A program made the position numbers and the translations under genes. Shown piece after piece: positions 1 to 19,491 of a stretch of 19,550 nucleotides of DNA; the first letter of the stretch is position 1; each line of letters starts with the position of its first letter. The stretch is taken from contig CALDQF010000096.1 of the NCBI GenBank assembly GCA_937911845.1, positions 1 to 19,550 on the forward strand, read 5' to 3'. Source of the stretch: an uncultured Phycisphaera sp. (GTDB taxonomy: Bacteria; Planctomycetota; Phycisphaerae; Phycisphaerales; SM1A02). Below the pieces are notes generated by a model that saw nothing but the letters and a program-made list of their open reading frames with translations, did not search any database and was not told the DNA's origin.

Positions 1-336
1 CTTGAGCCTGGAGCCATCGCAGCCATTCCCTGTGGGTTCGCCATGGCTTTGCCCGCGGGTTACGAAGCCCAAGTTCGCCCGCGTTCGGGGTTGGCCCTCA
101 AGCATGGTATTTCTATGCCCAACGCACCCGGCACCATCGATGCGGATTATCGGGGAGAAGTCAAAGTACCCCTGATCAATCTTGGAACTGAAGCCTTTGT
201 GGTGGAACCCGGGATGCGGATCGCCCAAATGGTGATTGCCGCGGTACCCATGGTGGAAATCATCGAAACTGAATCGCTCGATGAAACAGATCGCGGGCAG
301 GGTGGCTTCGGTTCCACTGGACTTCAGACGCCGTAA
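1..336 (+). CDS. dut: dUTP diphosphatase (dUTPase), 3' part only
   Basis: The enzyme hydrolyses dUTP to dUMP and diphosphate, keeping uracil out of DNA and supplying dUMP for dTMP synthesis. The gene runs in from the left edge: frame 1 is open from base 1, and the ATG at 43 lies inside the conserved fold, so it is not taken as the start. Four of the five trimeric-dUTPase motifs are visible: RPRSGLA (motif 2), [11 protein letters not shown] (motif 3, with the uracil/ribose-binding segment), RIAQMVI (motif 4) and the glycine-rich C-terminal arm [10 protein letters not shown] (motif 5), which closes over the triphosphate. Motif 1 must lie upstream of the window. The 3' end overlaps the tail of the convergent unknown gene by 13 bases. 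Identification is firm. Confidence 0.95.
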
Positions 337-5179: not shown

Positions 5180-5185
5180 GGCGAC

Positions 5186-5191
5186 AGTTTA
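5186..5191 (-). promoter_or_regulatory. Candidate -10 element (TAAACT), leaderless start of the kinase-like fusion
   Basis: On the minus strand TAAACT lies exactly six bases before the ATG at 5179, inside the 33-base gap after the pyrophosphorylase gene. A -10 box at this spacing would put the transcript start at the start codon itself. No Shine-Dalgarno and no clear -35 box are seen. This would be an internal promoter of the phoU run. Confidence 0.45.
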
Positions 5192-5212
5192 ACCGGCACG
5201 GCACTCAGAACA

Positions 5213-6604
5213 TCACACCAAGAACCGTTCTCCGGCCCCTAATTTTTCCGGGAGTTCACACAACGCCAGATCCGCTTGACACGTCGCGGTGGAGCTTCGA
5301 ATTTCGATTTGGGCCGCGGGTTGTCCTTCAGCACCCTGCGTAAAATGTACCCCGGCCTGGGCCAACCATTTGGCCGCTCGGGCCGATTGAGCCAATTGAC
5401 TGGTCTGTACAGAGTCCGATCCCTCGGCATTCTTGATTGGGGCAAATTCTTCGGCCCGGTCCGCCTCTACCACCAAGGGACGGTCAGCCAATGGCAACGC
5501 ATCAAAAATGAACGTCTCATATTTAACGGCATTCGGAGCCAACGGCTGTTGAACCGTTCCAGTCGACTCGTCAAAGAATGGCACTTTCTTGACGGCACGA
5601 TGGAATGGCAATCCCGTCCCATTCGTCAGACGGTCCAAAAACTCCAGACCAAACACGTGCACCGCCATGTTCCCCGCTCGGAACATCAACTTTCCACCGT
5701 CATCGGTAGCCTCGCACACCTCTTGGTCAAGATCTGAATATTCCAAGACCGTCAACTGGCCATCCTGAACCCCAAAGACACCAACCTTTTCGTCGGCGGA
5801 TCGCTTGGCCACCGCCTTGCTGGTCACTTCACCACTCGAAACAGAGTCCTCAATATGGAGTCCCAAGAAGACGGGGTCTAGCGCCCGGACCAAGGGATTG
5901 TCGACCTGGAAGTAAGACAGGTGTTCGATGCCTTGGCTGCGCAAAGTGGACAACAAGCCTGAACTGGACAAAGCACGAAGCGTGCCACCGTGTCCATCAG
6001 GATTAAACGCAATAGCATCGGCAGCGGCCAGCAACACTTCACCTGATTCGCGATCAACCGAAGGCATCACGCCTTGGGTGAAAAAATGAACGGTGCTCGG
6101 GTCCAGACCAAAGTGGTGATGATCCTCGAAAAAATCCACTGTTGATCCGTGATTCAATGGGCTCGTCATGATGCACCAAGGCACGGTTTGGCCGTAACGT
6201 TTGGTTTCTCGTTCGATTTGACCCGCAAACTGTGCGAACAGCGAATCGCCAGTGATGGGTCCGGAGGGGAACGTTCCTTTCGGTCCATCCCAGCCCAGAC
6301 GAGAGCCCTGACCCCCCGCCACCGTCAGACAGGCGACCTTGCCCTCAGCCAATAAGGCTTGACCTCTGGACAGCGCTTCAACGCGTACGGCACGATCGGT
6401 CAACTCAACCAAGTTTGGTGGTTCAGGGGCCGTCTGAACTTCACCTTGGTCTTCTGCGCTCCACAAACGCTGCATGCAGGAAAGATCCAACTGGGCAAGA
6501 TCACGCTGAAATCGAGCGGCCTGTTCACCACAAAGTTGATCCAAGCGACGAAGAAGATGAGACTGGCCCGCCGCAGCGAACACTTCAGAATCAAATGAAC
6601 ACAT
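5213..6604 (-). CDS. UDPGP-family uridylyltransferase (UDP-N-acetylglucosamine/UDP-sugar pyrophosphorylase-like), 463 residues
   Basis: This is the eukaryote-like UAP1/UGP type of pyrophosphorylase, which makes a UDP-sugar and diphosphate from UTP and a sugar 1-phosphate. The signature is LTVAGGQGSRLGWDGPKG (about residues 93-110), the LX2GGQGTRLGX3PKG nucleotide-binding loop. It is followed by a GPITGDSLF segment, by MTSPLNHGSTVDFF, by the substrate-binding region NPDGHGGTLRAL, and by YFQVDNPLV. These favour GlcNAc-1-P or a UDP-sugar of that type, but the sugar is not certain. The chosen ATG (6604) lies 14 bases after the phoU stop, with AAAGG a little far upstream. A TTG at 6646 would overlap phoU. 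With the phosphohexomutase in this window it could supply UDP-GlcNAc for LpxA, in place of or beside GlmU. Confidence 0.88.
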   Translation of the reverse strand: MCSFDSEVFAAAGQSHLLRRLDQLCGEQAARFQRDLAQLDLSCMQRLWSAEDQGEVQTAPEPPNLVELTDRAVRVEALSRGQALLAEGKVACLTVAGGQGSRLGWDGPKGTFPSGPITGDSLFAQFAGQIERETKRYGQTVPWCIMTSPLNHGSTVDFFEDHHHFGLDPSTVHFFTQGVMPSVDRESGEVLLAAADAIAFNPDGHGGTLRALSSSGLLSTLRSQGIEHLSYFQVDNPLVRALDPVFLGLHIEDSVSSGEVTSKAVAKRSADEKVGVFGVQDGQLTVLEYSDLDQEVCEATDDGGKLMFRAGNMAVHVFGLEFLDRLTNGTGLPFHRAVKKVPFFDESTGTVQQPLAPNAVKYETFIFDALPLADRPLVVEADRAEEFAPIKNAEGSDSVQTSQLAQSARAAKWLAQAGVHFTQGAEGQPAAQIEIRSSTATCQADLALCELPEKLGAGERFLV

Positions 6605-6618
6605 GGTGGCCCGAACCT

Positions 6619-7296
6619 TTACGCTGGATCCGTCGGTGAGGTCCAACCATCAGGCAGATGACGAACAGTTTTTCCCGTTCGTAAATAAATGACCTGCTCG
6701 GCGATGTTGGTCGAATGATCGGCGACACGTTCCAACTGTGCGACGGTAGAACGCAAGCGGAAGGCGTAACGGACCGGCATTTCGGACGCGGCAACTTTTT
6801 GTTCAGCCGAGAGCAAAATTTCGTTTCGGAATCGATCGACCGTGTCATCAAAAGCCAAGACCTGACCGGCCAAGCCTTCATTGAGGTCAGCAAAGGAACG
6901 CACGGCGTCTCGGGTCATCCCAACCACACTGTTGGCCATCACGCGAAATGCGGGATCCGGGGCACGATCAAGATCATCTCGATGGTGCAGCACAATCTCG
7001 GCAATGTTCACGCCACAGTCGGCGATCCGTTCCAACTCGTTGTTGAGTTTGACCACCGTCAAGATGGAGCGAATACTTGCGTGGTCGGTCTCTCCCATGG
7101 CCAAAAGTGGCACCGAGGCACGTTCAATTTCAACGTCAATCCGGTCGATCTCATCGTCCGCCAGCACCGCGGCATTGGCTTTGTCCTCATCGAGGTCGAA
7201 CCAAGCCTCTACGGCCGAGAGCAAGAGGCTCTGAACCCGCTCACCTTGGCGGACAAGGTCCGATCGAATCGCAGCGTGGGCATCTTCAAAGGGCAT
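6619..7296 (-). CDS. phoU: PhoU-domain phosphate regulator, 225 residues
   Basis: PhoU proteins restrain phosphate uptake through the Pst transporter and signal phosphate sufficiency to the PhoR/PhoB two-component system. The protein is the standard all-helical tandem repeat, with the two metal-binding segments visible: NNELERIADCGVNIAE (about residues 85-100) and VAQLERVADHSTNIAE (about 185-200), each with the E-x3-D pair. The length is normal. No pst, phoR or phoB gene is nearby; instead it heads the run containing the pyrophosphorylase. The ATG at 7296 has no Shine-Dalgarno; TAGATT lies six bases upstream. It is divergent from pdxJ, 61 bases away. Confidence 0.93.
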   Translation of the reverse strand: MPFEDAHAAIRSDLVRQGERVQSLLLSAVEAWFDLDEDKANAAVLADDEIDRIDVEIERASVPLLAMGETDHASIRSILTVVKLNNELERIADCGVNIAEIVLHHRDDLDRAPDPAFRVMANSVVGMTRDAVRSFADLNEGLAGQVLAFDDTVDRFRNEILLSAEQKVAASEMPVRYAFRLRSTVAQLERVADHSTNIAEQVIYLRTGKTVRHLPDGWTSPTDPA

Positions 7297-7302
7297 GATG
7301 TG

Positions 7303-7308
7303 AATCTA
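7303..7308 (-). promoter_or_regulatory. Candidate -10 element (TAGATT), leaderless start of phoU
   Basis: On the minus strand TAGATT precedes the phoU ATG by exactly six bases (CACATC), and no purine-rich ribosome-binding site lies between. The spacing puts the predicted transcript start at the start codon. No convincing -35 box was found. Confidence 0.5.
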
Positions 7309-7344
7309 TCGGCACAGTTGGTGGCGGAACGTTGATTCGGGCCC

Positions 7345-7350
7345 TAGGCT
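7345..7350 (+). promoter_or_regulatory. Candidate -10 element (TAGGCT), leaderless start of pdxJ
   Basis: TAGGCT is followed by seven bases (CACCAAC) and the GTG start of pdxJ. The AGG inside the hexamer is the only Shine-Dalgarno-like string, nine bases from the GTG. The arrangement matches the five other genes in this window with TANNNT at six or seven bases. Confidence 0.42.
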
Positions 7351-7357
7351 CACCAAC

Positions 7358-8101
7358 GTGATTCAGCTTGGTGTCAACATCGACCATGTGGCCACCGTCC
7401 GCCAAGCCCGGCGGACGTGGGAACCCGATCCCGTCTGGGCGGCGGCCGAGGCCCATCTCGGTGGTGCCGATGGCATCACTGTCCATTTGCGCGAAGATCG
7501 ACGGCACATCCAGGATGAAGACGTTCGGCGACTTCGCGAACTGGTGCATATCAAACTGAACTTGGAGATGGCGGCAACACCAGAGATGGTCAAGATCGCC
7601 ATCGCCACCCAGCCCCACACCGTGATGCTGGTGCCCGAAGGTCGCGAAGAAGTCACCACCGAAGGTGGCCTGGATCTGGTCTCGGGCCGATCACGACTCC
7701 AGCCACTCGTGGATCAATTGCATGACGCCGGACTCGCGACCAGCGCGTTCATCGACGCACTACCAGGTCAGATTGATACCGCCGCTGAAATGGGATTCTC
7801 TATCTGCGAGGTCCACACCGGACCATACGCCCATGCTTTCCACGAACATGGTCGAGATCCCGAAGCGCCCGAGGTCACAGCACTCCTGCAGCAACTCTCG
7901 GATGCCGGAAAACGTATTCAAGCCGCCGGAATGCGTTTCAACGCTGGGCACGCTTTGAATTACTACAACGTTCAACCCGTGGCCGCGCTGCAAGGTGTAC
8001 GCGAACTGCACATTGGACACTCCATTGTTTCCCGGTCCGTTCTCGTCGGAATGCGTGATGCCGTGAGAGAAATGAAATCATTAATCAGAGAGATGGCCTG
8101 A
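7358..8101 (+). CDS. pdxJ: Pyridoxine 5'-phosphate synthase PdxJ, 247 residues
   Basis: PdxJ condenses 1-deoxyxylulose 5-phosphate with 3-amino-2-oxopropyl phosphate to form pyridoxine 5'-phosphate, the last ring-forming step of the DXP-dependent vitamin B6 pathway. The N-terminal LGVNIDHVATVRQARRT is the family signature. ADGITVHLREDRRHI carries the catalytic histidine near residue 43, followed by KLNLEMAAT with its conserved glutamate, and MRFNAGHALNYYNV and ELHIGHSIVSR line the phosphate sites. The length is normal for the TIM barrel. The start is a GTG at 7358. The stop overlaps the start of the next gene by one base (TGATG), so the two are very probably translationally coupled. Confidence 0.96.
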   Translation: MIQLGVNIDHVATVRQARRTWEPDPVWAAAEAHLGGADGITVHLREDRRHIQDEDVRRLRELVHIKLNLEMAATPEMVKIAIATQPHTVMLVPEGREEVTTEGGLDLVSGRSRLQPLVDQLHDAGLATSAFIDALPGQIDTAAEMGFSICEVHTGPYAHAFHEHGRDPEAPEVTALLQQLSDAGKRIQAAGMRFNAGHALNYYNVQPVAALQGVRELHIGHSIVSRSVLVGMRDAVREMKSLIREMA

Positions 8102-8634
8102 TGAGTACCCCCCCCGTTGATCACGCCGGCGTGCCGTACCGCATCGCGGTCCTCGTTCACCTCACCGACGGACAAGGCCGGAGACTCTTGCTCCACCGCA
8201 CCAAAGAGCCCAATGCCGGCATGCACTCCCCGGTCGGCGGCAAGCTCGAAGTTGAGGATGGTGAATCACCGCACACCTGTGCTGTGCGCGAGGTTCATGA
8301 AGAAACCGGCATCGTCCTGAATGAAAACGAAGTTCACTTGCTGGGGATGGTGAGCGAACGGTCCTACGAGAACACCAACCACTGGTTGATCTTTGTTTAC
8401 GAGGCCACTCGAACCATTGATCCAGGTGAAATCACCTCAATGGTCATGGACGAGGGCGAACTGAAGTGGGTGCGCGATGAGGACGTTGAACACATCGGGA
8501 TTCCCGATACCGACCGTGAAATCCTCTGGCCGCAAGTCAAATCCCACTCCCCAGGTGGATTCTTTGTGGTGCACATCGAATGCGGCGGCAACACGCTGAA
8601 CTCCACGCTGCACCAATCGCATTCGGCCTCATAA
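8101..8634 (+). CDS. Nudix hydrolase, 177 residues
   Basis: Nudix proteins hydrolyse a nucleoside diphosphate linked to another moiety X, often removing damaged nucleotides or regulating dinucleotide levels; the substrate here cannot be read. The Nudix box spans about residues 46-71 (from GGKLEVEDGE to REVHEETGI). The REVHEETG half that binds metal is perfect, and two residues are inserted in the first half compared with the standard Gx5E spacing. A ranging loop with HWLIFVYEA and the acidic MDEGELKWV follow. The ATG shares one base with the pdxJ stop (TGATG). The stop lies five bases from the stop of the convergent glmM. The C-terminal 30 or so residues are low in recognisable motifs. Confidence 0.9.
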   Translation: MSTPPVDHAGVPYRIAVLVHLTDGQGRRLLLHRTKEPNAGMHSPVGGKLEVEDGESPHTCAVREVHEETGIVLNENEVHLLGMVSERSYENTNHWLIFVYEATRTIDPGEITSMVMDEGELKWVRDEDVEHIGIPDTDREILWPQVKSHSPGGFFVVHIECGGNTLNSTLHQSHSAS

Positions 8635-8639
8635 ATTCA

Positions 8640-10001
8640 TTACAAATTGGCCGCCTGCGTCACACGTGCGACCAGCGCTTCTGCCTGTTCCTTGGTGTCG
8701 GCTTCGGCAATCACCCGAACGATGGGCTCGGTGTTGGACGGACGAACGTGCACCCAGCCTTCCGCCAAATCGACCCGAACCCCGTCGAGGTCGTTGATGT
8801 GACCATCGGCGAACGTCGAGCGAACCGCCGCCAGCACTTTGGGGACCGCCGCGCGACCGCCGATGGACGACAAATCACGCTTTTCTTTGACCATGGCCAG
8901 CGCAGGAAGATCTGCGACCAATGCAGACAACGGTCGCCCCTCTTCGGCCAACAAATCCAACACCATCGCCATGCCCGTGATGGAATCCCGAACTTTGACC
9001 ACTTCTGGGTCAATCACGCCGCCATTGCCTTCACCACCCAGAATGGCGTTTGACTGCTCCATGGCATCCACCACATTGGCTTCGCCAACCGCCGAACGCA
9101 CCACACTGGCCCCTGGAAATCCTTCGGCAATGCGGTCAATCATGCGGCTGGTCGACAAGTTGCCCACCAACACACCGGAACCACGATGCCGCAGTACCCA
9201 AGTGGCGGCCAAGGCCAAGGTGCACTCTTCGTGAATGGGGACACCGCGCTCATCAACCAGAACCAACCGGTCGGCATCAGGATCTTGGGCAAAACCAACC
9301 ACCGCTCCGGAGTCGCGAACCCGATCACATAAATCACCGAGGTGGGCAGGAATGGGTTCGGCCGGTCGGGCAAACACACCATGTGGTTCGCCGTACAAGT
9401 GCTCATAGGGCACGCCCAGAGAGGCAAAGAGTTGTCGTCCCCCTTCACATCCAGCACCATTCACCGAATCAAGGACGACCGAACCAGGCACGCCCCGAAC
9501 CGGAACGACTGCCAGCGCACGTTCGACGTGCTGCCTGGTTAATGAATCATCGGACATGATCTGACCTGATCTGCCGGTCTGCACAACGTTGTTCTGGAAC
9601 CGAGCAATCACCTGCTCGGCAACCGCAGGCGGCGGTGCCACCCCTCGGTGATCGAGACACTTGATGCCATTCCATTCGATGGGATTGTGGCTCGCCGTGA
9701 CCATCAATCCGCCCGCGGCCCCAAATTGCCCAACCGCAAACCCTACGGTTGGGGTTGCCGCAATGCCCAGATCGACGACATCGCATCCCGAAGCTTGCAG
9801 ACCCCGGCGAGCCGCCGCCACCAAGTCGGCCCCCGACGGACGGGGATCGCGGCCCAGCACGACCCGCACGGCAGCACTGCTCTGCGAACCCAAATAGGTC
9901 CCCCATGCGGCGGCGTAGCGTTCGGCGACCGCTGGGGTCATGGTGATACCAACAATGCCCCGGGCACCAGAAACAGAAAGCATTAACGGTGCATCAGTCA
10001 T
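8640..10001 (-). CDS. glmM: Phosphohexomutase, probable phosphoglucosamine mutase (GlmM), 453 residues
   Basis: This alpha-D-phosphohexomutase most likely interconverts glucosamine 6-phosphate and 1-phosphate on the way to UDP-GlcNAc; phosphomannomutase or phosphoglucomutase activity is possible. The four family sites are present: active-site phosphoserine in TASHNP (Ser104), metal loop DPDADR (about 240-245), sugar-binding GEGNGG (about 323-328) and phosphate-binding RPSNTEP (about 420-426). The GEGNGG loop is closer to archaeal-type enzymes than to the GEQSGH loop of classical bacterial GlmM, so specificity stays open. The ATG at 10001 gives a normal N-terminus (MLSVSGARGIVG). A frame from 10217 would run through the PTPS gene. 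No Shine-Dalgarno is present; TAGCGT lies seven bases upstream. Confidence 0.88.
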   Translation of the reverse strand: MTDAPLMLSVSGARGIVGITMTPAVAERYAAAWGTYLGSQSSAAVRVVLGRDPRPSGADLVAAARRGLQASGCDVVDLGIAATPTVGFAVGQFGAAGGLMVTASHNPIEWNGIKCLDHRGVAPPPAVAEQVIARFQNNVVQTGRSGQIMSDDSLTRQHVERALAVVPVRGVPGSVVLDSVNGAGCEGGRQLFASLGVPYEHLYGEPHGVFARPAEPIPAHLGDLCDRVRDSGAVVGFAQDPDADRLVLVDERGVPIHEECTLALAATWVLRHRGSGVLVGNLSTSRMIDRIAEGFPGASVVRSAVGEANVVDAMEQSNAILGGEGNGGVIDPEVVKVRDSITGMAMVLDLLAEEGRPLSALVADLPALAMVKEKRDLSSIGGRAAVPKVLAAVRSTFADGHINDLDGVRVDLAEGWVHVRPSNTEPIVRVIAEADTKEQAEALVARVTQAANL

Positions 10002-10008
10002 GACAGGA

Positions 10009-10014
10009 ACGCTA
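10009..10014 (-). promoter_or_regulatory. Candidate -10 element (TAGCGT), leaderless start of glmM
   Basis: On the minus strand TAGCGT is followed by seven bases (TCCTGTC) and the glmM ATG, with no Shine-Dalgarno. It shares two bases with the opposite-strand TAGCAT of the PTPS gene inside the 23-base divergent gap. Confidence 0.45.
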
Positions 10015-10018
10015 GCAT
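10013..10018 (+). promoter_or_regulatory. Candidate -10 element (TAGCAT), leaderless start of the PTPS paralogue
   Basis: TAGCAT is followed by six bases (CGTTGC) and the GTG start at 10025, with no Shine-Dalgarno. The predicted transcript start is the start codon itself. Any -35 contact would lie inside the glmM coding region. Confidence 0.45.
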
Positions 10019-10024
10019 CGTTGC

Positions 10025-10399
10025 GTGCCTTTTGAATTGCGTATTGAACGAACTTTTTCGGCCGCCCATGCCATTGTGATCCAAGGCGAGCGGGAACCCT
10101 TGCACGGCCACGATTGGCGAGTTCTCGTGGCAGTACGTGGCCCCCAGCTTGACCAAGAAGAACTGCTGTGTGACTTTCATGCCATCGAGCAGCAAGTCGA
10201 TGGCGTGATCGCGCCATTCCACAATGCCAATCTCAACGAAACCATTCCTTTTGACCAGCGTAATCCCACCGCCGAAGCCATTGCCGAACACCTGTATCAA
10301 ACTTTGATGGATCGCATGCCCCAGGGAGCAAGTCTGCATCGTGTCGAAATCGGAGAAGCGCCGGGCTGCACCGCGGTCTACGGCGTCAAACTCGATTAA
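10025..10399 (+). CDS. 6-pyruvoyl-tetrahydropterin synthase paralogue of the PTPS-III (active-site Glu) type, 124 residues
   Basis: This belongs to the PTPS/QueD family of small T-fold enzymes acting on 7,8-dihydroneopterin triphosphate. The zinc histidines are in FSAAHA (His15) and LHGHDW (His27, His29), and the substrate glutamate is in VEIGEAPG (Glu111). The catalytic cysteine that QueD and PTPS carry before HGH is absent; the motif reads EPLHGH, with Glu24. In the literature such glutamate-bearing PTPS-III proteins, known from Planctomycetes among others, make 6-hydroxymethyl-dihydropterin and bypass FolB in folate synthesis. That role is inferred here. The usual DH pair further on is FH (Phe65-His66) with a loop one residue longer. 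The start is GTG. The stop shares a TTAA with the lpxA stop. Confidence 0.85.
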   Translation: MPFELRIERTFSAAHAIVIQGEREPLHGHDWRVLVAVRGPQLDQEELLCDFHAIEQQVDGVIAPFHNANLNETIPFDQRNPTAEAIAEHLYQTLMDRMPQGASLHRVEIGEAPGCTAVYGVKLD

Positions 10400-11226
10400 C
10401 GATCCCGAGGATCGACCGTCTTGTCATGCGAACGCTGGTTCTCGAGCGCTCGACCATTCTTTCCGGATAACGTCGCGCGGATGGAATCCACGATGCTTTG
10501 GATCGTCTCGCTGCCCGAGAACTGCTCCAAGAGAACCGCGCAGGTGGACTCTTGATCACCACTCGGCTCTCGGTAGAGCATTCGGTACGACTCCAAGACC
10601 GCGTGAATGTCTTCTTCGGTCATCTGCGCTCGCTGCATGCCCACCCGGTTGCAGCCCCGAACTTCAGCCGGAGCGCCATCGACCATCATCCAAGGCGGAA
10701 CGTCTTTGATCACCCGGGCCAAGCCAGCCAAGAACGCCCCCGAACCAATGGTGGTGAAGTGATGAATCCCAGCCCCCCCACCCAAGTTGGCGCGATCGCC
10801 CACCACCACATGCCCGCCCAACATCACGTTGTTGGCAATGATGCACAACGACCCAATGTGGCAGTCGTGCCCCACATGACTCCCGGCCATGATGAGATTT
10901 CGATTCCCTAAGGTCGTTAACCCTCCGCCTTGCACGGTGCCGCGGTGCACACTGCTGTGCTCTCGGAAGCTGTTGTCATCCCCACACTCGAGGCTGACCT
11001 GCTCACCCTTCCACTTGAGGTCCTGCGGATCGCCACCAACCACGGCGAAAGGATGCACCGTGCAGCGGTGTCCAAGCGTGGTGTCCGACCCCACAACCGC
11101 GTGAGAACGAAGAACACAATCTGGTCCGAGATGACTGCGCGGACCAACCACCGCAAATGGTCCAATCTCACAGCCATCAGCAAGGTGAGCCGTGGCGTCG
11201 ACTTCAGCAGTTGGGTGAATGGTCAT
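10396..11226 (-). CDS. lpxA: UDP-N-acetylglucosamine acyltransferase LpxA, 276 residues
   Basis: LpxA transfers a 3-hydroxyacyl chain from ACP to the 3-OH of UDP-GlcNAc, the first step of lipid A synthesis in the cytoplasm. The left-handed beta-helix hexapeptide repeats run from about residue 3 to 185. GGDPQDLKWKGE is a strong LpxA signature. The catalytic histidine sits in SHVGHDC (His120), followed by IANNVMLGGHVVVGD. The helical C-terminal domain follows, somewhat longer than in E. coli, with a charged tail. It is the last gene of the envelope operon, 12 bases after lpxC-fabZ, with no Shine-Dalgarno at normal spacing. Its stop overlaps the opposite-strand PTPS gene by four bases. Confidence 0.95.
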   Translation of the reverse strand: MTIHPTAEVDATAHLADGCEIGPFAVVGPRSHLGPDCVLRSHAVVGSDTTLGHRCTVHPFAVVGGDPQDLKWKGEQVSLECGDDNSFREHSSVHRGTVQGGGLTTLGNRNLIMAGSHVGHDCHIGSLCIIANNVMLGGHVVVGDRANLGGGAGIHHFTTIGSGAFLAGLARVIKDVPPWMMVDGAPAEVRGCNRVGMQRAQMTEEDIHAVLESYRMLYREPSGDQESTCAVLLEQFSGSETIQSIVDSIRATLSGKNGRALENQRSHDKTVDPRDR

Positions 11227-11238
11227 GCGTGTTACGCG

Positions 11239-12594
11239 TCAATCGACGCTGTCCTCCTCGATGAGCATGAAGCGAATTCTCGCTTCCGCCGCGAGGGTTC
11301 CCGCGACGGTTGCTCGACATCGGACCGAGATGATTCGGGCCCGAACTTGGATCGTCTCTGCTTCCAAGACCAACTGGTCACCTGGGGTGACCGGCTTCCG
11401 AATCTTGACCCCATCCAAACTCAACAAGACCGGGGTCTTCCCAGTGTTGTCCACCGTGTTGGAAACCAGCAGTCCCCCCAACTGGGCCATGGCTTCAACG
11501 ATAAGGACGCCAGGCATGATGGGGACATTGGGGTAGTGCCCTTGAAAGAACGGCTCGTTGATGCTGACATTCTTGATGCCAATGGCTTTCTGATCTCCAT
11601 CCAGTTCCAGAACCCGATCCACCAAAAGCATGGGGTAGCGGTGCGGGAGAGCACGCTGAATGGACCGAATGTCCATCGCGCGACCTTCACGAAGGAGATT
11701 GGGGTCCACCGGAAGATCGTGCACCAACGAAAGCGCCAGACGTCGATTGAGTTCATGCCCCGACCGAGCCGCAAAGAGCCGGCCTTGGATGCGGCGACCG
11801 GTCAGAGCCAAATCACCTATCAAATCCAAAATCTTGTGCCGGGCGGGTTCTTCAGGGAACCGAAGTTCGGTGGCAATCGGACCATCAGCCCCAAAGACCA
11901 GCATGTCCCCTTCCCGATGATGTCGCCCCAAACCTGCCTGCCGAAGCGCCTCTGCTTCTTCTTCAAGGCAGAACGTTCGAGCGGGCGCAATCTCCGTGGC
12001 GAAAATCTCTGGCGTCAGCGCCAAAGCCACGGACTGACGCTGAATGCGGCCGTCGTCCAAACCATCGTCACGGCTGTAATCCAAGTCGTACATGACTTCG
12101 AGTCCACCGGCTTTGGACGGTGCCAATCCAACTAGAGCCTGCTCTTCCGATTCTGCCGTCAGATTCTCGGGATGAAGCACCGCCGCGGGCTCATCCTGGT
12201 CCACGATGCCGACTTCCAGAATGGCTTCAACGAACACTTGGGCTGAACCATCAAAGCCTGGGGGCTCGGTCGAATCCAATTCAATTCGTACATTGTCGAT
12301 CTCAAGCCCCGCCAGTGCGGCCAAGAGATGCTCGACGGTTTGGACACGTACTTCTCCGAGCTCCAAGATGGTGCGTCGCTCAGCTCGACGAGCAAACTTC
12401 ACCAATGCAGGAATCTGGACCGCCGGCTCCAAATCGGTACGAACAAACACCCGACCGGTACCGGGCTCAGCGGGAAGCAAGCGCAAGCGGCAGTGTTCAC
12501 CGGTGAGAAGTCCGGCGCCTTCCAGTTCGATGACCGCCGCCACCGTTCGCTGGGACACCATTGACTGCGGGTTGGATGAAGAGGACGCGTTCAT
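11239..12594 (-). CDS. lpxC-fabZ: Bifunctional LpxC deacetylase / FabZ 3-hydroxyacyl-ACP dehydratase fusion, 451 residues
   Basis: The N-terminal half (about 13-300) is LpxC, the zinc deacetylase that commits UDP-3-O-acyl-GlcNAc to lipid A. Its ligands are visible in TVEHLLAAL (Glu88, His89) and HKILDLIGDLAL (His253, Asp257), the catalytic His280 is in RSGHELN, and DGSAQVFVEAI is the substrate loop. The C-terminal part (about 308-448) is FabZ, which dehydrates 3-hydroxyacyl-ACP; FFQGHYPNVPIMPGVLIVEAMAQ spans 349-371 and holds His353 and Glu367. The fusion couples the acyl-chain pool to lipid A commitment and is known from Bacteroidetes and some other Gram-negatives. The ATG overlaps the lpxD stop as ATGA, implying coupled translation. 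Both active sites look complete. Confidence 0.96.
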   Translation of the reverse strand: MNASSSSNPQSMVSQRTVAAVIELEGAGLLTGEHCRLRLLPAEPGTGRVFVRTDLEPAVQIPALVKFARRAERRTILELGEVRVQTVEHLLAALAGLEIDNVRIELDSTEPPGFDGSAQVFVEAILEVGIVDQDEPAAVLHPENLTAESEEQALVGLAPSKAGGLEVMYDLDYSRDDGLDDGRIQRQSVALALTPEIFATEIAPARTFCLEEEAEALRQAGLGRHHREGDMLVFGADGPIATELRFPEEPARHKILDLIGDLALTGRRIQGRLFAARSGHELNRRLALSLVHDLPVDPNLLREGRAMDIRSIQRALPHRYPMLLVDRVLELDGDQKAIGIKNVSINEPFFQGHYPNVPIMPGVLIVEAMAQLGGLLVSNTVDNTGKTPVLLSLDGVKIRKPVTPGDQLVLEAETIQVRARIISVRCRATVAGTLAAEARIRFMLIEEDSVD

Positions 12595-13601
12595 GAGGAA
12601 TGCCCAGGTTTTGACCGTGCCAGCCTATTGATGAGGGCGACCGATCGCAAGAATTGTCGGTGCGGGCGGGCGGGAGATCCAGACCAGACCTCACCGGCTG
12701 GAACGTCCGAGATAACGCAGGAATCCATCCCAATGGTGGCACCTTGGTGCACGGTCACGTGATCTTTCACGATGGCCGCACCTGCCAGAACCACGTCATC
12801 CTCCAGAACCGACGAACCGGCGACGCCAGACATGCCGCTCATGCGAACTCGATCACCCACTGTGGCGTTGTGTCCCACTTGGCACAAGTTGTCGATTTTG
12901 ACGTCGTGGCCGATGGAGGTGTTCGTCAACAGACCACGGTCTACACAGGACTGCACTCCGAGTTCAAATCGATCGCCGATGCAAACCGCCCCCAAGTGAG
13001 GCAGACGGTGAGCTGGTCGTCCGGGGGCATAATCAAAGCCAAAGCCTTCCCCCCCCACCACGGCGTGTTCGTGCAAAGTCCCGTCTTGACCAAGCTCACA
13101 ATCGCGACCCAAAACGGCGTGGTGTCGCAAGTGGGTTCGTGCACCAATTTTGGCCCGAGCGCCCACTTGTGATCCAGATTCAAGAATGACCCCATCACCC
13201 AAGCAGGCCCCGGGGCCAACATGAACAAATGGGCCAATACGAACATCGTGGCCCACGCTTGCACTGGGATCGACGACGGCCGAAGGATGAATACCTTGGG
13301 CAGGAACATCTTCCTTCGGCGCAAAAATTTCGAGGGTCCGCCGGAGTGGTGCGTCATCCACAAGAATCAAAGTCTTGTCTTGAGCATCACCGTAGGCCTC
13401 GAGGTCCTGCGTCCGAAGCACCACGGTTCCCGCGGCCGAGGCCTTGGCCACTGCAAGCCAAGCGGTTCCAGATGCCGCAACCACATCTCCCGAAGCCGCA
13501 TGCTCAGGCGCGGCGGGCCCCACAATCGTTCGAGAAGGATCACCAATGACCTCAGCATTTAGGCATGTGGCGAGTTCCTGAGCAGTGGAGGGAAGGCTCA
13601 G
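12591..13601 (-). CDS. lpxD: UDP-3-O-(3-hydroxyacyl)glucosamine N-acyltransferase LpxD, probable CTG start, 336 residues
   Basis: LpxD adds the second, N-linked 3-hydroxyacyl chain to UDP-3-O-acyl-glucosamine. The hexapeptide beta-helix is clear, with GGEGFGFD, NLCQVGHNATVGD (catalytic histidine) and AGAAIVKDHVTV. The first ATG, GTG or TTG in frame is GTG at 13523, but it cuts the N-terminal uridine-binding domain. Upstream the same frame reads TAQELATCLNAEVIGDPS, which matches the usual LpxD opening (a short helix then GxxIGDP). Reading back to a CTG at 13601, which overlaps the ompH stop as CTGA, gives 336 residues, close to the family norm of about 340. No other start codon is available, so CTG initiation coupled to ompH termination is proposed. 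A sequence error is the alternative. Confidence 0.85.
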   Translation of the reverse strand: MSLPSTAQELATCLNAEVIGDPSRTIVGPAAPEHAASGDVVAASGTAWLAVAKASAAGTVVLRTQDLEAYGDAQDKTLILVDDAPLRRTLEIFAPKEDVPAQGIHPSAVVDPSASVGHDVRIGPFVHVGPGACLGDGVILESGSQVGARAKIGARTHLRHHAVLGRDCELGQDGTLHEHAVVGGEGFGFDYAPGRPAHRLPHLGAVCIGDRFELGVQSCVDRGLLTNTSIGHDVKIDNLCQVGHNATVGDRVRMSGMSGVAGSSVLEDDVVLAGAAIVKDHVTVHQGATIGMDSCVISDVPAGEVWSGSPARPHRQFLRSVALINRLARSKPGHSS

Positions 13602-14173
13602 AGCTCGTTCATCCGGCTGGTCACGATGGCGGTCACGTCGGCCACAGGTTCGGCGTGCAATACCGATTGGTCCAAAATCGCACTACGAACGATATTGGGA
13701 TCGAGAGACTCAGGAACAGTGAATGGCGTCCGAGGCAACACCACGGTCCAGCCGCGCTCGGCGGACAAAGATGCCATGGACTTCTGCGCCAAGCCGTGCA
13801 ACTGCTCGAGAATCCGTGCGTTCTCTGAATTGATGCGAAGCTCCATGGTGCGCTGCATGGCCCGGAACGCGTTGGCTTTTTCCAGCAGTTGATCTTCAAG
13901 TCGCATCCGTTCGGGCGAATCTGGGGTCAAGATGCCCGACTGCAAATCATTTTGGATGGTGGTGATTTCATCCTTCAACGTCTCGGCTTCGGATTGCATC
14001 CGCTGGGCCAGCTCAACCAAGCGAGCCTCCTCTTGACTCCAAGCATCTGAAGCTTCGATGGCAGCCACCACATCCACCACCACGACTGGGCCTTCGGCAC
14101 TTCTCGAAAAACCAAGAAGCAAGCCAGCCAAGCCGCATCCGAACATCAACATCATGGTGCGTGATTGACTCAT
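13598..14173 (-). CDS. ompH: OmpH/Skp-family periplasmic chaperone, 191 residues (second copy)
   Basis: Skp-like proteins are periplasmic holdases that carry unfolded outer-membrane proteins to the BAM complex. The N-terminus is a signal sequence (hydrophobic MMLMFGCGLAGLLLGF, probable cleavage after SRSA). A short strand (VVVVDVVAAIE) and a long charged, coiled-coil-like stretch of about 90 residues follow. A second strand (WTVVLPRTPF) and a C-terminal segment ending in DVTAIVTSRMNEL complete it. An ideal AAGGAG lies six bases before the ATG, and the preceding ompH stop is one base away. Its TGA overlaps the proposed CTG start of lpxD. Identification rests on architecture and operon position, since the family is poorly conserved. 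Confidence 0.82.
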   Translation of the reverse strand: MSQSRTMMLMFGCGLAGLLLGFSRSAEGPVVVVDVVAAIEASDAWSQEEARLVELAQRMQSEAETLKDEITTIQNDLQSGILTPDSPERMRLEDQLLEKANAFRAMQRTMELRINSENARILEQLHGLAQKSMASLSAERGWTVVLPRTPFTVPESLDPNIVRSAILDQSVLHAEPVADVTAIVTSRMNEL

Positions 14174-14174
14174 G

Positions 14175-14789
14175 TCACTCTCCTTGAGATCCGGCGGCCC
14201 AGCTTCGGTTCATCTGGTCCAAAATGATTGCGGTCGCGTCAACCGGTTGCCCGGCATACAGAATGCGGCGGTCGCGCATGAATTGTTTGTATTGAGCCTC
14301 AAGGGGAGCTTCCCGGGAGGGGAAGAATTCGGCTGAGGAATCATCGGCCACGACCACATCCCAGCCGCGGGCCTCGGAAATTTTGCGAACCTCCTCACGC
14401 AGTTCCGCGAAGACCGACTGCCAAAGCTTGACCCGCTCGCGTTCCAAAATGTCGTTCCAATAGGCCATCTTGGCTTCATACTGAAACTCAAGATCCTTGA
14501 ACGCCACAATTGCCTCACGCTGGGCGGCGGAACCTTCGGCCGTTTGCATGACCTGTTCCGCATCGGACAACCGGGATTTCCACGCATCGCCTTCGGCTTG
14601 AATTTCTGCAGCACGAGCCTGCAACTTTCGTTCGGCATCTGCCCGCTGCTCAAGACCACCAATGACTTCCTCAATATCCACCACGGCAACAATCACCGCA
14701 GAAGCGGAGCTGGCGGTGGTGCCGTCGGCCATATCGGCCCCGATCCAACCCACCAGCACTGCCAATGGGAACCAACTTGCGACTCGCAT
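14175..14789 (-). CDS. ompH: OmpH/Skp-family periplasmic chaperone, 204 residues (first copy)
   Basis: This is the first of two adjacent Skp-like genes. It has an N-terminal signal sequence (hydrophobic SWFPLAVLVGWIGA), a strand region IVAVVDIEEVIGG like the start of mature Skp, and a long Ala/Glu/Arg/Gln-rich helical arm of about 100 residues. It then has GWDVVVADDSSAEFF and a tail ending DATAIILDQMNRSW, parallel to DVTAIVTSRMNEL in the second copy. Apart from this shared layout the two proteins look well diverged. GGAG lies seven bases before the ATG. The gene sits 73 bases after bamA, the longest gap inside this operon, which contains a hairpin. Confidence 0.83.
   Translation of the reverse strand: MRVASWFPLAVLVGWIGADMADGTTASSASAVIVAVVDIEEVIGGLEQRADAERKLQARAAEIQAEGDAWKSRLSDAEQVMQTAEGSAAQREAIVAFKDLEFQYEAKMAYWNDILERERVKLWQSVFAELREEVRKISEARGWDVVVADDSSAEFFPSREAPLEAQYKQFMRDRRILYAGQPVDATAIILDQMNRSWAAGSQGE
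14180..14185 (-). promoter_or_regulatory. Strong Shine-Dalgarno AAGGAG of the second ompH
   Basis: AAGGAG lies six bases before the ATG at 14173. It is the best ribosome-binding site in the window and shows that this organism does use Shine-Dalgarno initiation inside operons, in contrast to the six genes with TANNNT at their starts. Confidence 0.65.
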
Positions 14790-14796
14790 ACACGGT

Positions 14797-14800
14797 CTCC
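14797..14800 (-). promoter_or_regulatory. Shine-Dalgarno GGAG of the first ompH
   Basis: GGAG lies seven bases before the ATG at 14789 on the minus strand, just after the 14803-14821 hairpin. Confidence 0.55.
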
Positions 14801-14802
14801 AA

Positions 14803-14821
14803 CAAGATCACACGGATCTTG
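14803..14821 (-). repeat. Inverted repeat (7-bp stem, 5-base loop) between bamA and ompH
   Basis: CAAGATC and GATCTTG pair perfectly around a five-base loop. On the mRNA the stem lies directly before TTGGAG. There is no T-run of terminator quality. It could protect or punctuate the message between bamA and the chaperone genes, or be chance. Confidence 0.4.
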
Positions 14822-14836
14822 GCTTTCAAGTGGTAC

Positions 14837-14846
14837 AGGATACCCC
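14837..14846 (-). repeat. Copy 2 of a 10-base intergenic motif (GGGGTATCCT)
   Basis: The same ten bases occur just before bamA (17214-17223) and here just after it, both in intergenic DNA of the envelope operon and in the same orientation. TATCCT inside it fits TANNNT, so an internal promoter before ompH is possible, but no -35 box is seen. Confidence 0.35.
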
Positions 14847-14862
14847 GTCGAGGGACCTTGGC

Positions 14863-17205
14863 TCAGAAAGGCAGTTCCGCTCGAAAAGACAGCACTTGGG
14901 TTTGGTCCAAATCCTCTTGAATGAGCGGCCAAGCCAGATCGATGGCCATGGGGACTGGCCCTAGGAAAGGCAGGTAGAAGCGGCCACCGATACCAGCTGC
15001 CACACGCCAAGACTCGACACCAGGTTCCGTGAGAACCGTTCCCGAATCAACAAACACTGCGAGGGCGAAATTCTCGCCGACCAGTGGGTGCTCGTATTGC
15101 AAGCCCGCAAAAGCCAAGAACGAACCGCCAATCGGATCGGAACTGGGTTCTCCGTCGCTGGCCCGCACAGACTTGGGGCTGATGGTGCGATTCTCAAAGC
15201 CGCGCAGTGAATTCCCCCCCAGGTAATAGCGCTCCCACAGCGGAACTCGAGGCACACTGTCAAAAATACTGCCCAAGCGAGCGTTCCAACGAAGTACCCG
15301 GTTTCGTCCTTGGTCGTCGGTGCCCAACAAGAAGAATTGGGTCCATTCCAGATCTGCTTTCCACCAACTGAAATCTCCGCCCAAGAATCCAACTTGTTCC
15401 AAAGAGAGTTCGACGCTTCCGCCAGCAGTAGGCCGGAAGAAGCTGCTCAACGTCGTGCGACGAAGTTGTAGACCAACTCCATTCACAGTGGAACGGTCAC
15501 CATCCAAGAAATAATCAACGGGTACCGAGTCATTCGACGGATCAATCTCGGCCGCATCGCTTCGCAGATTGAATGAAGCATTCCAGTTGTTGCCGAACCT
15601 CCGATCCACACCCACGGTGGCCCGGCGGGAGGATTCAATCTGTCGGATGTACTGACGCTCCTGCCACGTCAAGTTGGTTCGGAATCCCCACTCGGTGTCA
15701 AAGACCCGCGGCTCTTCAAAATTCAGGCTGTAGCGAAACAACTCGGTGCCCGGCTGAATGGTCAACTGGAAGTTCTGACCACCACCGCGGAAGCCTTCTC
15801 GAAGACCATCGATACCCCAGGACTCGGGAGGACGAGTGGCATCAAAGTTGGATTGGCTGTACCGGAACTCACCGTAGATTCCACTGTCCGAACCAACCGC
15901 GCCCCCAAAAGAAATCACCCCCGTGTTGCGCTCCCGAACAAAAACGAGCAAGTCCCGGACGCCGGGCTGATCTGGCTTCGGGGGTTCGATTTGGACGCGA
16001 ACCTCACTGAAATGCTGAAGATTGTCGAGTCGACGTTTAGCTTCTTGGATTCCGGTCTTGTCAAAAGGACGTCCGGGACGCAAGTCCAGTTCACGTCGGA
16101 TCACTTTGTCACGCGTGACCACATTGCCACGAATGTTGATTTGCCCCACCGTGGAGAGCGATCCCTCAGAGATCTTCAACTGCAAATCAATATTGGCTCC
16201 CGGCCCGGGGCGGACGGGTCGATCCACAATACGAACATCCAGATGGCCCAGGGCGTGGTACCCAGATTCCACCCGAACGATGGCGGCATCAATGCTCGCT
16301 TGTTCCCAAGGTCTGCCAAGTTGGAGACCCAACAATGATTTGATCTGAGCGGCATCCATCACCGCCTTTTCACCTTCAGTGATCTCGATACGCACATCGC
16401 CCAACTGGTAGCGGACACCTTCGAGAACATAGAACGTGACGATGGCTTCGCGGTCGTCAGGGCTTCGGGTGACGGACCAATCCACTCGGGCATCACGCCA
16501 GCCTCGACCACGGTAAAAGTCACGGATCGCTTTGGCGTCTTCGTCCAGTTTGGATTCGTCAAGCGTGCCCGATTCCAACAGCAAGATGGCGGGTTGCACC
16601 TCGACCAGTTGTTGGAGACGGTCGCCCTTCATGGAAGCGTTGCCGAGGAATCGAACCGATCGCACTTTGGCCCGAGGACCTTCGCTGACCAACAGAGTCA
16701 GATTTTCAGGTCGGTCCCCACTGGTGAATTCCACTCGGGATTCCAAATACCCTTCGCCGCGCATCCAGAGCTCCACATCGCGGGCCGCACGTTCGAGGAG
16801 CGCTTCATCTCGTATGGAACCCAACAAGCGTGGGACACGGTTCAAAATCTCTTCAGAACCGAGACGCCGGTTGCCCTGAACCTCGACTGAACGAATGATG
16901 GGCGCGAGAACCACGCGGTACACCAAATCGACCGCCCCATCGGGACGCTCGGTGACTTTGGCCATCACTTCCGAAAATCGACCCAACTCCGTCAGGCGTC
17001 GGATATCCGCCCGGACGATGGCGGCATCCAGAGGAGAGCCCGCCAGACTCCGCAGGTTGTTGAGGGCAAATCGGGTGTCCGATTCTGTCCCTCCCAGCAC
17101 GCGAACTGTCCCCACCGGCCGACCGGCCAAGGTAACCATCAGATCCTCGGCTCCCGCAAAAGAGGAGCAGAGCAGCAAAATCAGGATGCGGGACGCAACC
17201 GACAT
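14863..17205 (-). CDS. bamA: Outer-membrane protein assembly factor BamA, 780 residues
   Basis: BamA is the Omp85-family core of the BAM complex that folds beta-barrel proteins into the outer membrane. The ATG at 17205 gives a textbook signal peptide (basic MSVASR, hydrophobic ILILLLCSSF, cleavage after AGA). Five POTRA domains follow, roughly at 20-95, 96-175, 176-262, 263-350 and 351-430. The last contains the repeat-typical VGQINIRGNVVTRDKVIRRE. A 16-stranded barrel of about 345 residues follows, with the loop-6 motif GGNSLRGF (LRGF for the usual VRGF) and a C-terminal strand ending in Phe. A TTG at 17256 would add 17 residues before the signal peptide and overlap the small upstream gene. 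No Shine-Dalgarno is present; a strong hairpin abuts the start codon. Confidence 0.96.
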   Translation of the reverse strand: MSVASRILILLLCSSFAGAEDLMVTLAGRPVGTVRVLGGTESDTRFALNNLRSLAGSPLDAAIVRADIRRLTELGRFSEVMAKVTERPDGAVDLVYRVVLAPIIRSVEVQGNRRLGSEEILNRVPRLLGSIRDEALLERAARDVELWMRGEGYLESRVEFTSGDRPENLTLLVSEGPRAKVRSVRFLGNASMKGDRLQQLVEVQPAILLLESGTLDESKLDEDAKAIRDFYRGRGWRDARVDWSVTRSPDDREAIVTFYVLEGVRYQLGDVRIEITEGEKAVMDAAQIKSLLGLQLGRPWEQASIDAAIVRVESGYHALGHLDVRIVDRPVRPGPGANIDLQLKISEGSLSTVGQINIRGNVVTRDKVIRRELDLRPGRPFDKTGIQEAKRRLDNLQHFSEVRVQIEPPKPDQPGVRDLLVFVRERNTGVISFGGAVGSDSGIYGEFRYSQSNFDATRPPESWGIDGLREGFRGGGQNFQLTIQPGTELFRYSLNFEEPRVFDTEWGFRTNLTWQERQYIRQIESSRRATVGVDRRFGNNWNASFNLRSDAAEIDPSNDSVPVDYFLDGDRSTVNGVGLQLRRTTLSSFFRPTAGGSVELSLEQVGFLGGDFSWWKADLEWTQFFLLGTDDQGRNRVLRWNARLGSIFDSVPRVPLWERYYLGGNSLRGFENRTISPKSVRASDGEPSSDPIGGSFLAFAGLQYEHPLVGENFALAVFVDSGTVLTEPGVESWRVAAGIGGRFYLPFLGPVPMAIDLAWPLIQEDLDQTQVLSFRAELPF

Positions 17206-17206
17206 G

Positions 17207-17226
17207 TGGGGGGAGGATACCCCCCA
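17207..17226 (-). repeat. G6/C6 hairpin ending one base before the bamA start codon
   Basis: On the mRNA a stem of seven pairs (one U-A and six G-C) encloses a six-base loop UAUCCU; its 3' arm ends one base before the bamA AUG. It occupies the place where a Shine-Dalgarno would be, between the small gene's stop (17234) and bamA. With no T-run it is not an intrinsic terminator. It would hinder initiation when folded, so control of bamA translation is possible. The loop plus flank also forms copy 1 of the GGGGTATCCT motif, with TATCCT eight bases from the ATG. Confidence 0.55.
17214..17223 (-). repeat. Copy 1 of a 10-base intergenic motif (GGGGTATCCT)
   Basis: This copy lies inside the bamA-proximal hairpin; copy 2 is at 14837-14846. 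TATCCT ends eight bases before the bamA ATG, so it could also act as a -10 box giving a nearly leaderless bamA transcript. Confidence 0.35.
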
Positions 17227-17233
17227 TGCCGGA

Positions 17234-17389
17234 TCAACCGAGCCACAAGGAGGCAATCATCCCCAAGGCAAAGAGAACCAAGGCCATGGTGCCCAAAGCC
17301 TTGTCGTGAGTCGGCTGAGGGGCAACGCGAGCCACCGGTTGAGAACGGCACTGGCGGAGGCTGGTTTTTGGCAATTGGAACTGTGGCAT
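17234..17389 (-). CDS. Small single-pass membrane protein, 51 residues, first gene of the envelope operon
   Basis: This short open frame was found by reading the gap between bamA and gcvT. It starts at ATG 17389 with GGAG seven bases upstream and ends at TGA 17234. The first 30 or so residues are polar and basic (MPQFQLPKTSLRQCRSQPVA), rich in Pro, Gln and Arg. The last 20 form one hydrophobic helix (ALGTMALVLFALGMIASLWL) ending at the C-terminus. That predicts a tail-anchored protein with its N-terminus in the cytoplasm. Its stop lies 28 bases before the bamA ATG, so it would be co-transcribed with bamA. I do not recognise a family. The good ribosome-binding site and clean membrane helix argue that it is real. 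Confidence 0.6.
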   Translation of the reverse strand: MPQFQLPKTSLRQCRSQPVARVAPQPTHDKALGTMALVLFALGMIASLWLG

Positions 17390-17514
17390 CTACATTCTCC
17401 AAAGTCCACATCGACCAGGAATGGAGGGCAAACGAGCCGCAAACTGAACCAGAGCCTCGGTGGGTTCAGGTCATTCCGGCAACTCCGACAATCCGGCATG
17501 GCTACCCTGTGGGC
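17390..17514. other. Divergent intergenic region between the envelope operon and gcvT (125 bases)
   Basis: This gap must hold the promoter of the bamA-lpxA operon (minus) and that of gcvT (plus). On the plus side a TACCCT lies six bases from the gcvT ATG. On the minus side GGAG (17397-17400) serves the small gene. I could not pick a convincing -35/-10 pair for the operon. Confidence 0.5.
17503..17508 (+). promoter_or_regulatory. Candidate -10 element (TACCCT), leaderless start of gcvT
   Basis: TACCCT is followed by six bases (GTGGGC) and the gcvT ATG. GTGGG is at best a very weak, too-close Shine-Dalgarno. The layout repeats that of five other genes in this window. Confidence 0.42.
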
Positions 17515-18627: not shown

Positions 18628-19491
18628 TCAACCCTGGCGGATTTTGCGGCGCTCTTCAAACCAACGGACGGGATGCCCGGATTCGATGGCGCTGCGGATG
18701 CGACCCAATGCTTCCGACTCCAACTGGCGGACGCGTTCACGCGTCAGACCAATTCGAGCACCGATCTCTTTCAGGGTCAAGGGTTGTTCACCCTGGAGTC
18801 CGAATCGAAGACGCAAAATGCTGGCATCTCGCTCGTCGATGACGTCCAAGAGTTCCATCACCACGCTGTAAATCTCTCGGTTGCCGGTTTGCTCTTCTGG
18901 AGCCGCCTGACTGGCGTCCGCAAAGGTCTCTGAGAAACCACGCTGTTCATCGTCGTTTGCGGTTGAAATGGTGCTTGCGGATTGGGTGTCCATCGCTTGC
19001 CGCACCACGGCATATTTTCGTGGGGGCACTGAAAGCGATTTGGCCATTTCCGCATCGGTGGGCGGACGTCCATTCTTTTGCTCAAAATAACGAGCCAGTT
19101 CTTTTGCTCGAGCAATCAATTCAACCATGTAGGCCGGGATATGCACCGGCTGGCGTGCGTGGAGCAACGTGCGCTTGATGGCTTGCTTGATCCACCAAGA
19201 AGCGTAGGTCGAAAAACGAGCACCTTGCGCAGGATCAAAGCCCTCTGCCGCGCGAATCAACCCGACATTTCCCTCTTCGATCAGGTCAGACAACGTCATG
19301 CCACGGTTGTTGTAGTTCTTGCTGATGGCCACCACGAGGCGAAGGTTGGCTCGGATCAACCGATCTTTGGCTTCATGGCAACCATCGTTGATGATGGACC
19401 ATCCCAGCTCTCGCTCCTCGAGCGGTGTCAAAAGATTGGTGCGACCAATCTCCTGCAGGTAATGCTCGAGTTCTCCATGGCTTCTGGACAT
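18628..19491 (-). CDS. RNA polymerase sigma factor of the sigma-70 (RpoD/SigA) family, 287 residues
   Basis: This factor directs RNA polymerase to -35/-10 promoters. Region 1.2 (HYLQEIGRTNLLTPLEERELG), region 2 (DRLIRANLRLVVAISKNY, DLIEEGNVGLIRA, GARFSTYASWWIKQAIKR), region 3 (about 115-180) and region 4 with its helix-turn-helix (LTLKEIGARIGLTRERVRQLE, about 238-258) are all present. No region 1.1 is seen, so it may be the housekeeping factor in a short form or a group 2 paralogue. The ATG at 19491 has GAGGG five bases upstream. A GTG at 19542, at the window edge, would add 17 polar residues. The gene converges on gcvT with 15 bases between the stops. Confidence 0.93.
   Translation of the reverse strand: MSRSHGELEHYLQEIGRTNLLTPLEERELGWSIINDGCHEAKDRLIRANLRLVVAISKNYNNRGMTLSDLIEEGNVGLIRAAEGFDPAQGARFSTYASWWIKQAIKRTLLHARQPVHIPAYMVELIARAKELARYFEQKNGRPPTDAEMAKSLSVPPRKYAVVRQAMDTQSASTISTANDDEQRGFSETFADASQAAPEEQTGNREIYSVVMELLDVIDERDASILRLRFGLQGEQPLTLKEIGARIGLTRERVRQLESEALGRIRSAIESGHPVRWFEERRKIRQG

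Follow-up and report, generated by a model that had tools for sequence, protein, structure and literature searches.

TANNNT hexamers beside start codons of Phycisphaerales as putative leaderless promoters, some apparently shared by head-to-head genes

TANNNT hexamers at the locus

The stretch analysed here, referred to as the window, is a whole contig of 19,550 bp (CALDQF010000096.1, own label C96) from a metagenome-assembled genome (MAG) of a marine Phycisphaerae bacterium (1.99 Mb in 493 contigs). Several of its start codons are preceded at short distance by the hexamer TANNNT, which probably serves as the -10 box of leaderless genes. The product of the window's gcvT is 92, 89 and 84% identical to those of the marine Phycisphaerae MAGs MED-G178, NAT18 and MED835.

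The original prediction placed such hexamers 6 or 7 bp upstream of six starts, and all six were present at these offsets. On the reverse strand, TAAACT (5186..5191) lies 6 bp before a kinase-like fusion gene (ATG at 5179) and is kept in MED-G178, the sole relative compared for this gene. TAGATT (7303..7308) stands 6 bp before phoU (ATG at 7296) and TAGCGT (10009..10014) 7 bp before glmM (ATG at 10001), and all three same-genus relatives have the same two boxes; the phoU spacer differs in MED-G178 although the box is unchanged. On the forward strand, TAGGCT (7345..7350) is found 7 bp before pdxJ (GTG at 7358), TAGCAT (10013..10018) 6 bp before a PTPS-family gene (GTG at 10025; Pfam PF01242) and TACCCT (17503..17508) 6 bp before gcvT (ATG at 17515), where the three same-genus orthologues carry TACCCT or TACGCT. 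The TATCCT reported 8 bp before bamA (17214..17219, reverse strand; ATG at 17205) is present as well, unchanged in all three same-genus orthologues, and groups with the six. The kinase-like fusion gene had been described as bounded by a short divergent gap; it actually follows a gene of the same strand at a distance of 33 bp.

When 18 window starts were scored with glmM at 10001, TANNNT occurred four times at offset 6, twice at offset 7, once at offset 8 and once at offset 27, and nowhere else between 0 and 29. The probability of at least six of 18 starts with the hexamer at offset 6 or 7 is 7.7e-7 at the window's GC content of 57.4%. With the 17 window starts chosen by the gene caller, the counts were 4, 1 and 1 at offsets 6, 7 and 8 with one more at 25 (P = 1.3e-5). 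Concerning glmM, two starts are possible on the reverse strand, 9983 and 10001; the box favours 10001 and codon scoring picks 9983. A scan of the window for the classic sigma-70 consensus gave 4 sites versus 5.4 in shuffles, and an Rfam scan of the window gave nothing above gathering scores. An ompH stretch compared with plasmids had no match, which has no bearing on the boxes. The genome-wide test carries more weight, because the six starts had been selected by eye.

Position, operon context and conservation of the hexamers

This test was carried out on MAG sequences, with genome samples of 400 kb for MED-G178 (G006, same genus) and 100 kb each for class- and phylum-level genomes. Further labels are G000 for the own genome, G005 and G007 for same-genus members, G016 for a member of the same family and G038 for one of the same order. 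Starts were chosen by the gene caller from codon usage and start-codon type alone, blind to upstream DNA. Genes with a divergent neighbour or a same-strand gap of more than 50 bp were classed as operon-first, those at most 20 bp behind a same-strand neighbour as tight. Expected counts were taken from the same upstream regions at offsets 12-45, and 1950 in-frame internal ATGs of G006 were used as internal control.

A peak at offsets 6-7 across genome starts had been set beforehand as the test, and a sharp one was found in G006. Its 314 starts had TANNNT 0, 35, 11, 8 and 8 times at offsets 5 to 9 and 0-4 times at any other offset from 0 to 24, while the internal ATGs gave 0, 4, 2, 0 and 2 at the same five offsets and 0-9 at the others. 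Among 176 operon-first genes, 32 carried the hexamer at offset 6-7 versus 2.6 expected (P = 3.5e-25) and 39 at offset 6-8 versus 3.9 expected. The peak was also sharp in the own-genome sample (7/53 operon-first starts at offset 6-7, 0.9 expected), in four pooled same-family genomes (17/163, 1.5 expected) and in the same-order G038 (12/180, 2.5 expected). In the same pipeline, Deinococcus radiodurans MP1 gave 9/75 versus 1.2 expected and Escherichia coli 5/57 versus 2.2 expected, which is not significant (P = 0.07). Thermus thermophilus pTT27, with only 16 operon-first starts, is too small a sample to judge.

In G006 the hexamer was commoner in operon-first (39/176) than in tight same-strand genes (8/99; P = 0.0017). 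Shine-Dalgarno (SD) tetramers were rarer in operon-first genes with a box (7/39) than in those without (51/137; P = 0.017) and commonest in tight genes (52/99). The anti-SD sequence CCTCC is kept at the 16S 3' end of G001 and G002, the two relatives read, and SD and leaderless modes would therefore coexist. TTG starts were absent from the 54 TANNNT genes of G006, compared with 15/312 overall.

When spacers of 0-45 bp upstream of 39 aligned G006 sites were searched for a -35 element, TTGAC, TTGA, TTG and TTGNNA were not enriched at 15-19 bp. The three middle bases of the aligned boxes lean to G/C, G/A and A/C. Deinococcus and Actinobacteria possess the protein CarD. One family search over 21 Phycisphaerales genomes gave no match to a stand-alone CarD. 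Matches to the CarD domain above the cut-off were found once in each of 19 genomes, in frames of 1078-1260 amino acids (aa) that were read as Mfd; one sub-threshold match lies in an 823-aa frame, and two of the 21 genomes had none.

Genes of G006 were paired with their orthologues in G000, G005 and G007, and in 44 of these 45 pairs, which are not mutually independent, the orthologue retains the hexamer at offset 5-9. Other operon-first starts are 0.59-0.96 identical per base, so plain relatedness accounts for part of this conservation. Column identity in ungapped comparisons was 0.87-0.89 for the fixed T, A and T, 0.80-0.87 for the middle bases, 0.87-0.96 for the six bases just upstream and mostly 0.61-0.73 for the spacer from its third base; thus, only the spacer is clearly freer. 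Middle bases can change between orthologues, as from TAAGAT to TAGAAT or from TAGACT to TACAGT.

The strongest case of conservation is pdxJ, because its start is largely fixed by a conserved N-terminus and was chosen regardless of the box. In the three same-genus orthologues its box is TACGCT at a spacing of 7 or 6. Among the best 30 of 40 Phycisphaerales genomes with a match, 23 had TANNNT at offsets 5-9 (3, 12, 3, 4 and 1), while the remaining bins of five offsets between 0 and 59 held 0-3 each. The count was 20/27 when the three same-genus relatives were left out. An SD tetramer precedes pdxJ in 4 of the 30 genomes.

Short divergent gaps with shared boxes

The 23-bp intergenic region between glmM and the PTPS gene (10002..10024; GACAGGAACGCTAGCATCGTTGC) is read as a putative bidirectional leaderless promoter with the core ACGCTAGCAT. 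Its leftward TAGCGT and rightward TAGCAT share the central TA at 10013-10014, and three same-genus relatives have the same core as the window. Apart from glmM and PTPS, which were assigned by Pfam, the gene names at loci with shared boxes are our own reading of the translations. The core ANNNTANNNT also fills a 22-bp gap between ispA-like and motA/exbB-like genes in G006. It was found again in a 26-bp gap of locus L055, where the leftward open reading frame (ORF) has 260 aa and three relatives retain the boxes on both sides at shifted spacing, and in a 26-bp gap of another contig of the own genome (C105).

A still shorter arrangement is the 17-bp gap between a ferredoxin gene (fdx) and rlmN, which consists of one symmetric TATCCTA box; all four genus members agree in every one of the 23 bases, flanking start codons included. 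Further symmetric 17-bp sites lie between two long ORFs in G024, G037 and G038; at another, in G027, the ORFs run off the locus. The symmetric pattern occurred at 21 places in 41 genomes versus 8 for a reversed control. Most of the 16 symmetric sites read were not long-ORF pairs, and therefore only true long-ORF pairs were counted.

The genome samples were scanned for pairs of divergent starts at a distance of 10-45 bp that have a box on either side. There were four in G006, three in G000, two in G012 and one each in G022, G117 and D. radiodurans; none was found in the samples of G009, G016, G024, G038, G063, G075, G129 and E. coli. Divergent pairs with shared boxes are thus few in number.

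With start codons 17 or 22 bp apart and both taken as +1, the distances between transcription start sites (TSSs) are 18 and 23 bp. Judged by sequence, -10 elements on opposite strands overlap here at a TSS spacing of about 18 or 23 bp, and the glmM/PTPS and fdx/rlmN gaps look like minimal bidirectional leaderless promoters.

Divergent gaps of less than 60 bp made up 17/53 in G006 and 5/13 in G000, both genomes of 2 Mb, versus 3/40 in G016 and 2/43 in G038. The difference hints at a link between genome streamlining and leaderless promoters.

Proposed mode of initiation and its alternatives

The peak in position, the bias towards operon-first genes, the conservation, the missing -35 and the overlapping geometry point to TANNNT as a sigma-70-type -10 element without recognisable -35, set for leaderless transcription from the start codon. 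The probability of this reading is put at roughly 90%. In sigma-70 geometry, +1 falls 6-7 bp after the -10 hexamer, and the predicted transcript start therefore lies on the start codon. We infer that RNA polymerase initiates there: it would use the TANNNT -10 alone, take the start codon's first base as +1 and produce mRNAs that lack a leader and begin directly with ATG or GTG. Translation would begin at the mRNA 5' end without SD pairing, and downstream genes of the operon would instead rely on SD sites or start/stop overlaps. In head-to-head genes at 17-26 bp, two -10 boxes would overlap and the whole intergenic region would act as one bidirectional promoter.

With less confidence, and still leaning in its favour, we propose that -10-only leaderless promoters are a main expression mode of Phycisphaerales. 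Some head-to-head pairs would then be reduced to the physical minimum, either a palindromic TANNNTA in 17 bp or two boxes sharing TA in 22-26 bp. Both starts would be +1, and one polymerase footprint would decide between two housekeeping mRNAs.

The window also encodes a sigma-70 family protein of 287 aa (18628-19491, reverse strand) with regions 1.2, 2, 3 and 4 by Pfam. It is a candidate reader of the TANNNT boxes. Its own gene is preceded by an SD-like CGAGG.

Several results weigh against leaderless transcription from TANNNT. The gene caller was exact on 31 of 42 annotated E. coli starts, a check that left out two partial coding sequences (CDS), one 14-aa CDS and one noncoding RNA. The signal is weak in the same-family G016, with 5/189 at offset 6-7 (1.2 expected, P = 8e-3) and 10/189 at 6-8 (P = 2e-5). 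No significant excess was seen at offset 6-7 in small samples of two same-class genomes outside the order (3/76, 2.0 expected) and of two genomes outside the class (3/85, 3.1 expected). Boxes also precede the 8 of 99 tight genes of G006; some of these are conserved too, and boxes therefore also sit within the ends of upstream genes. An SD tetramer accompanies the box in 7 of the 39 operon-first TANNNT genes, the fixed T, A and T are hardly more conserved than the middle bases and no more than the bases just upstream, and the pdxJ box is absent at 7 of 30 starts. Finally, a TA at offset 6 is in frame with the start codon, so upstream stops could inflate TAA and TAG there. TAC or TAT, however, made up 14 of the 35 offset-6 matches of G006 versus 4 of 1942 internal ATGs. 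At the other in-frame offsets tested, these two triplets occurred not at all (3 and 18), three times each (12 and 15) or eight times (9), and offsets 7 and 8, out of frame with the start, are also enriched in G006.

A -10 box may also be combined with a +1 that lies a few bases off in part of the genes, giving leaders of 1-5 nucleotides, as for bamA at offset 8 and others at 9. Offsets 8 and 9 are indeed enriched (8 and 8 of the 314 G006 starts) and the bamA offset of 8 is unchanged in four species, whereas the mode is offset 6 and the pdxJ spacing, which shifts from 7 to 6 between species, stays within the expected range. Such short leaders would limit the leaderless reading and are possible, though doubtful. 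Far less probable is a role in translation, with TANNNT serving in the mRNA as an A/U-rich contact site of the ribosome or of S1 and not as a promoter box. For groups including the one Planctomycetes species examined, an A/T-rich bias before non-SD starts has been put down to leaderless mRNA, RPS1 or both (PMC5397173). The sharp placement of three fixed bases at offset 6-8, the preference for operon-first genes, the overlap of boxes on both strands at promoter spacing in short divergent gaps, and middle bases that are mostly G, C or A and not U-rich speak against such a signal. Chance or an artefact of start choice, for which the hand-picked six starts and the deviation of glmM 10001 from the caller's choice might be cited, has a negligible probability, being contradicted by the genome-wide peak, the frame check, the pdxJ counts and the window counts.

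Leaderless genes with a -10 element of this type are known, as the original prediction said, from Actinobacteria and Deinococcus (PMC3160421 and PMC12340547), and in D. radiodurans TANNNT was found by experiment to act as -10 region (PMC12340547). The leaderless genes of Deinococcus-Thermus resemble those of Phycisphaerae in having the same hexamer at the same position beside the ORF, and D. radiodurans MP1 shows the same offset-6 peak in the same pipeline. They differ in belonging to another phylum and in that Phycisphaerales had no stand-alone CarD match in the 21 genomes. Actinobacteria, also a different phylum from Phycisphaerae, use ATG and GTG as leaderless starts. About 20% of their genes are leaderless, with a TA-like signal about 10 bp upstream (PMC3160421), and this work (Zheng 2011) does not name Planctomycetes in its list of groups with leaderless genes. 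The survey of 2017 covers one Planctomycetes species, with a bias attributable to leaderless mRNA or S1 (PMC5397173), and the Deinococcus paper of 2025 has a bacteria-wide scan in a supplementary figure that may include Planctomycetota (PMC12340547). Among the papers listed by the literature searches, none has a title that deals with leaderless genes in Phycisphaerae or with leaderless promoters of the bidirectional kind, and no transcription-start map was listed for Planctomycetota, Phycisphaerae included.

The bidirectional promoters of E. coli described by Warman and others likewise share the -10 on both strands. Their TSSs are 18 bp apart, and distances of 10 and 23 bp are common too (PMC12825309; PMC10268837); here the corresponding distances between start codons are 18 and 23-27 bp. 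Unlike in E. coli, the predicted TSSs are the start codons, and the -10 core with two short spacers forms the entire intergenic region. The present results add an order of Planctomycetota to the groups known for leaderless TANNNT genes and are new by lineage; the compact bidirectional form may be new.

Leaderless expression would be abundant in this order, at a level like that of the D. radiodurans plasmid control, and gene finders that expect SD sites may misplace start codons in Phycisphaerales. With neither a visible -35 nor a stand-alone CarD, the question arises of what stabilises the open complex. The gene pairs with shared boxes could be used as a natural test system for RNA polymerase competition at bidirectional promoters.

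Among further observations, stretches of about 35-90 bp at three loci (L066 10410-10489, L064 8821-8884 and L057 9616-9702) match many places in the genus at 68-89%; they are perhaps tRNA genes or a dispersed repeat. In the window, 324-2312 (reverse strand) encodes a protein of 595-662 aa without a Pfam family at E 0.001. The bamA-gcvT gap contains a small ORF of 51 aa (17234-17389, reverse strand), shorter than the length limit of the gene caller; its C-terminus is hydrophobic and its ATG is preceded by GGAG.

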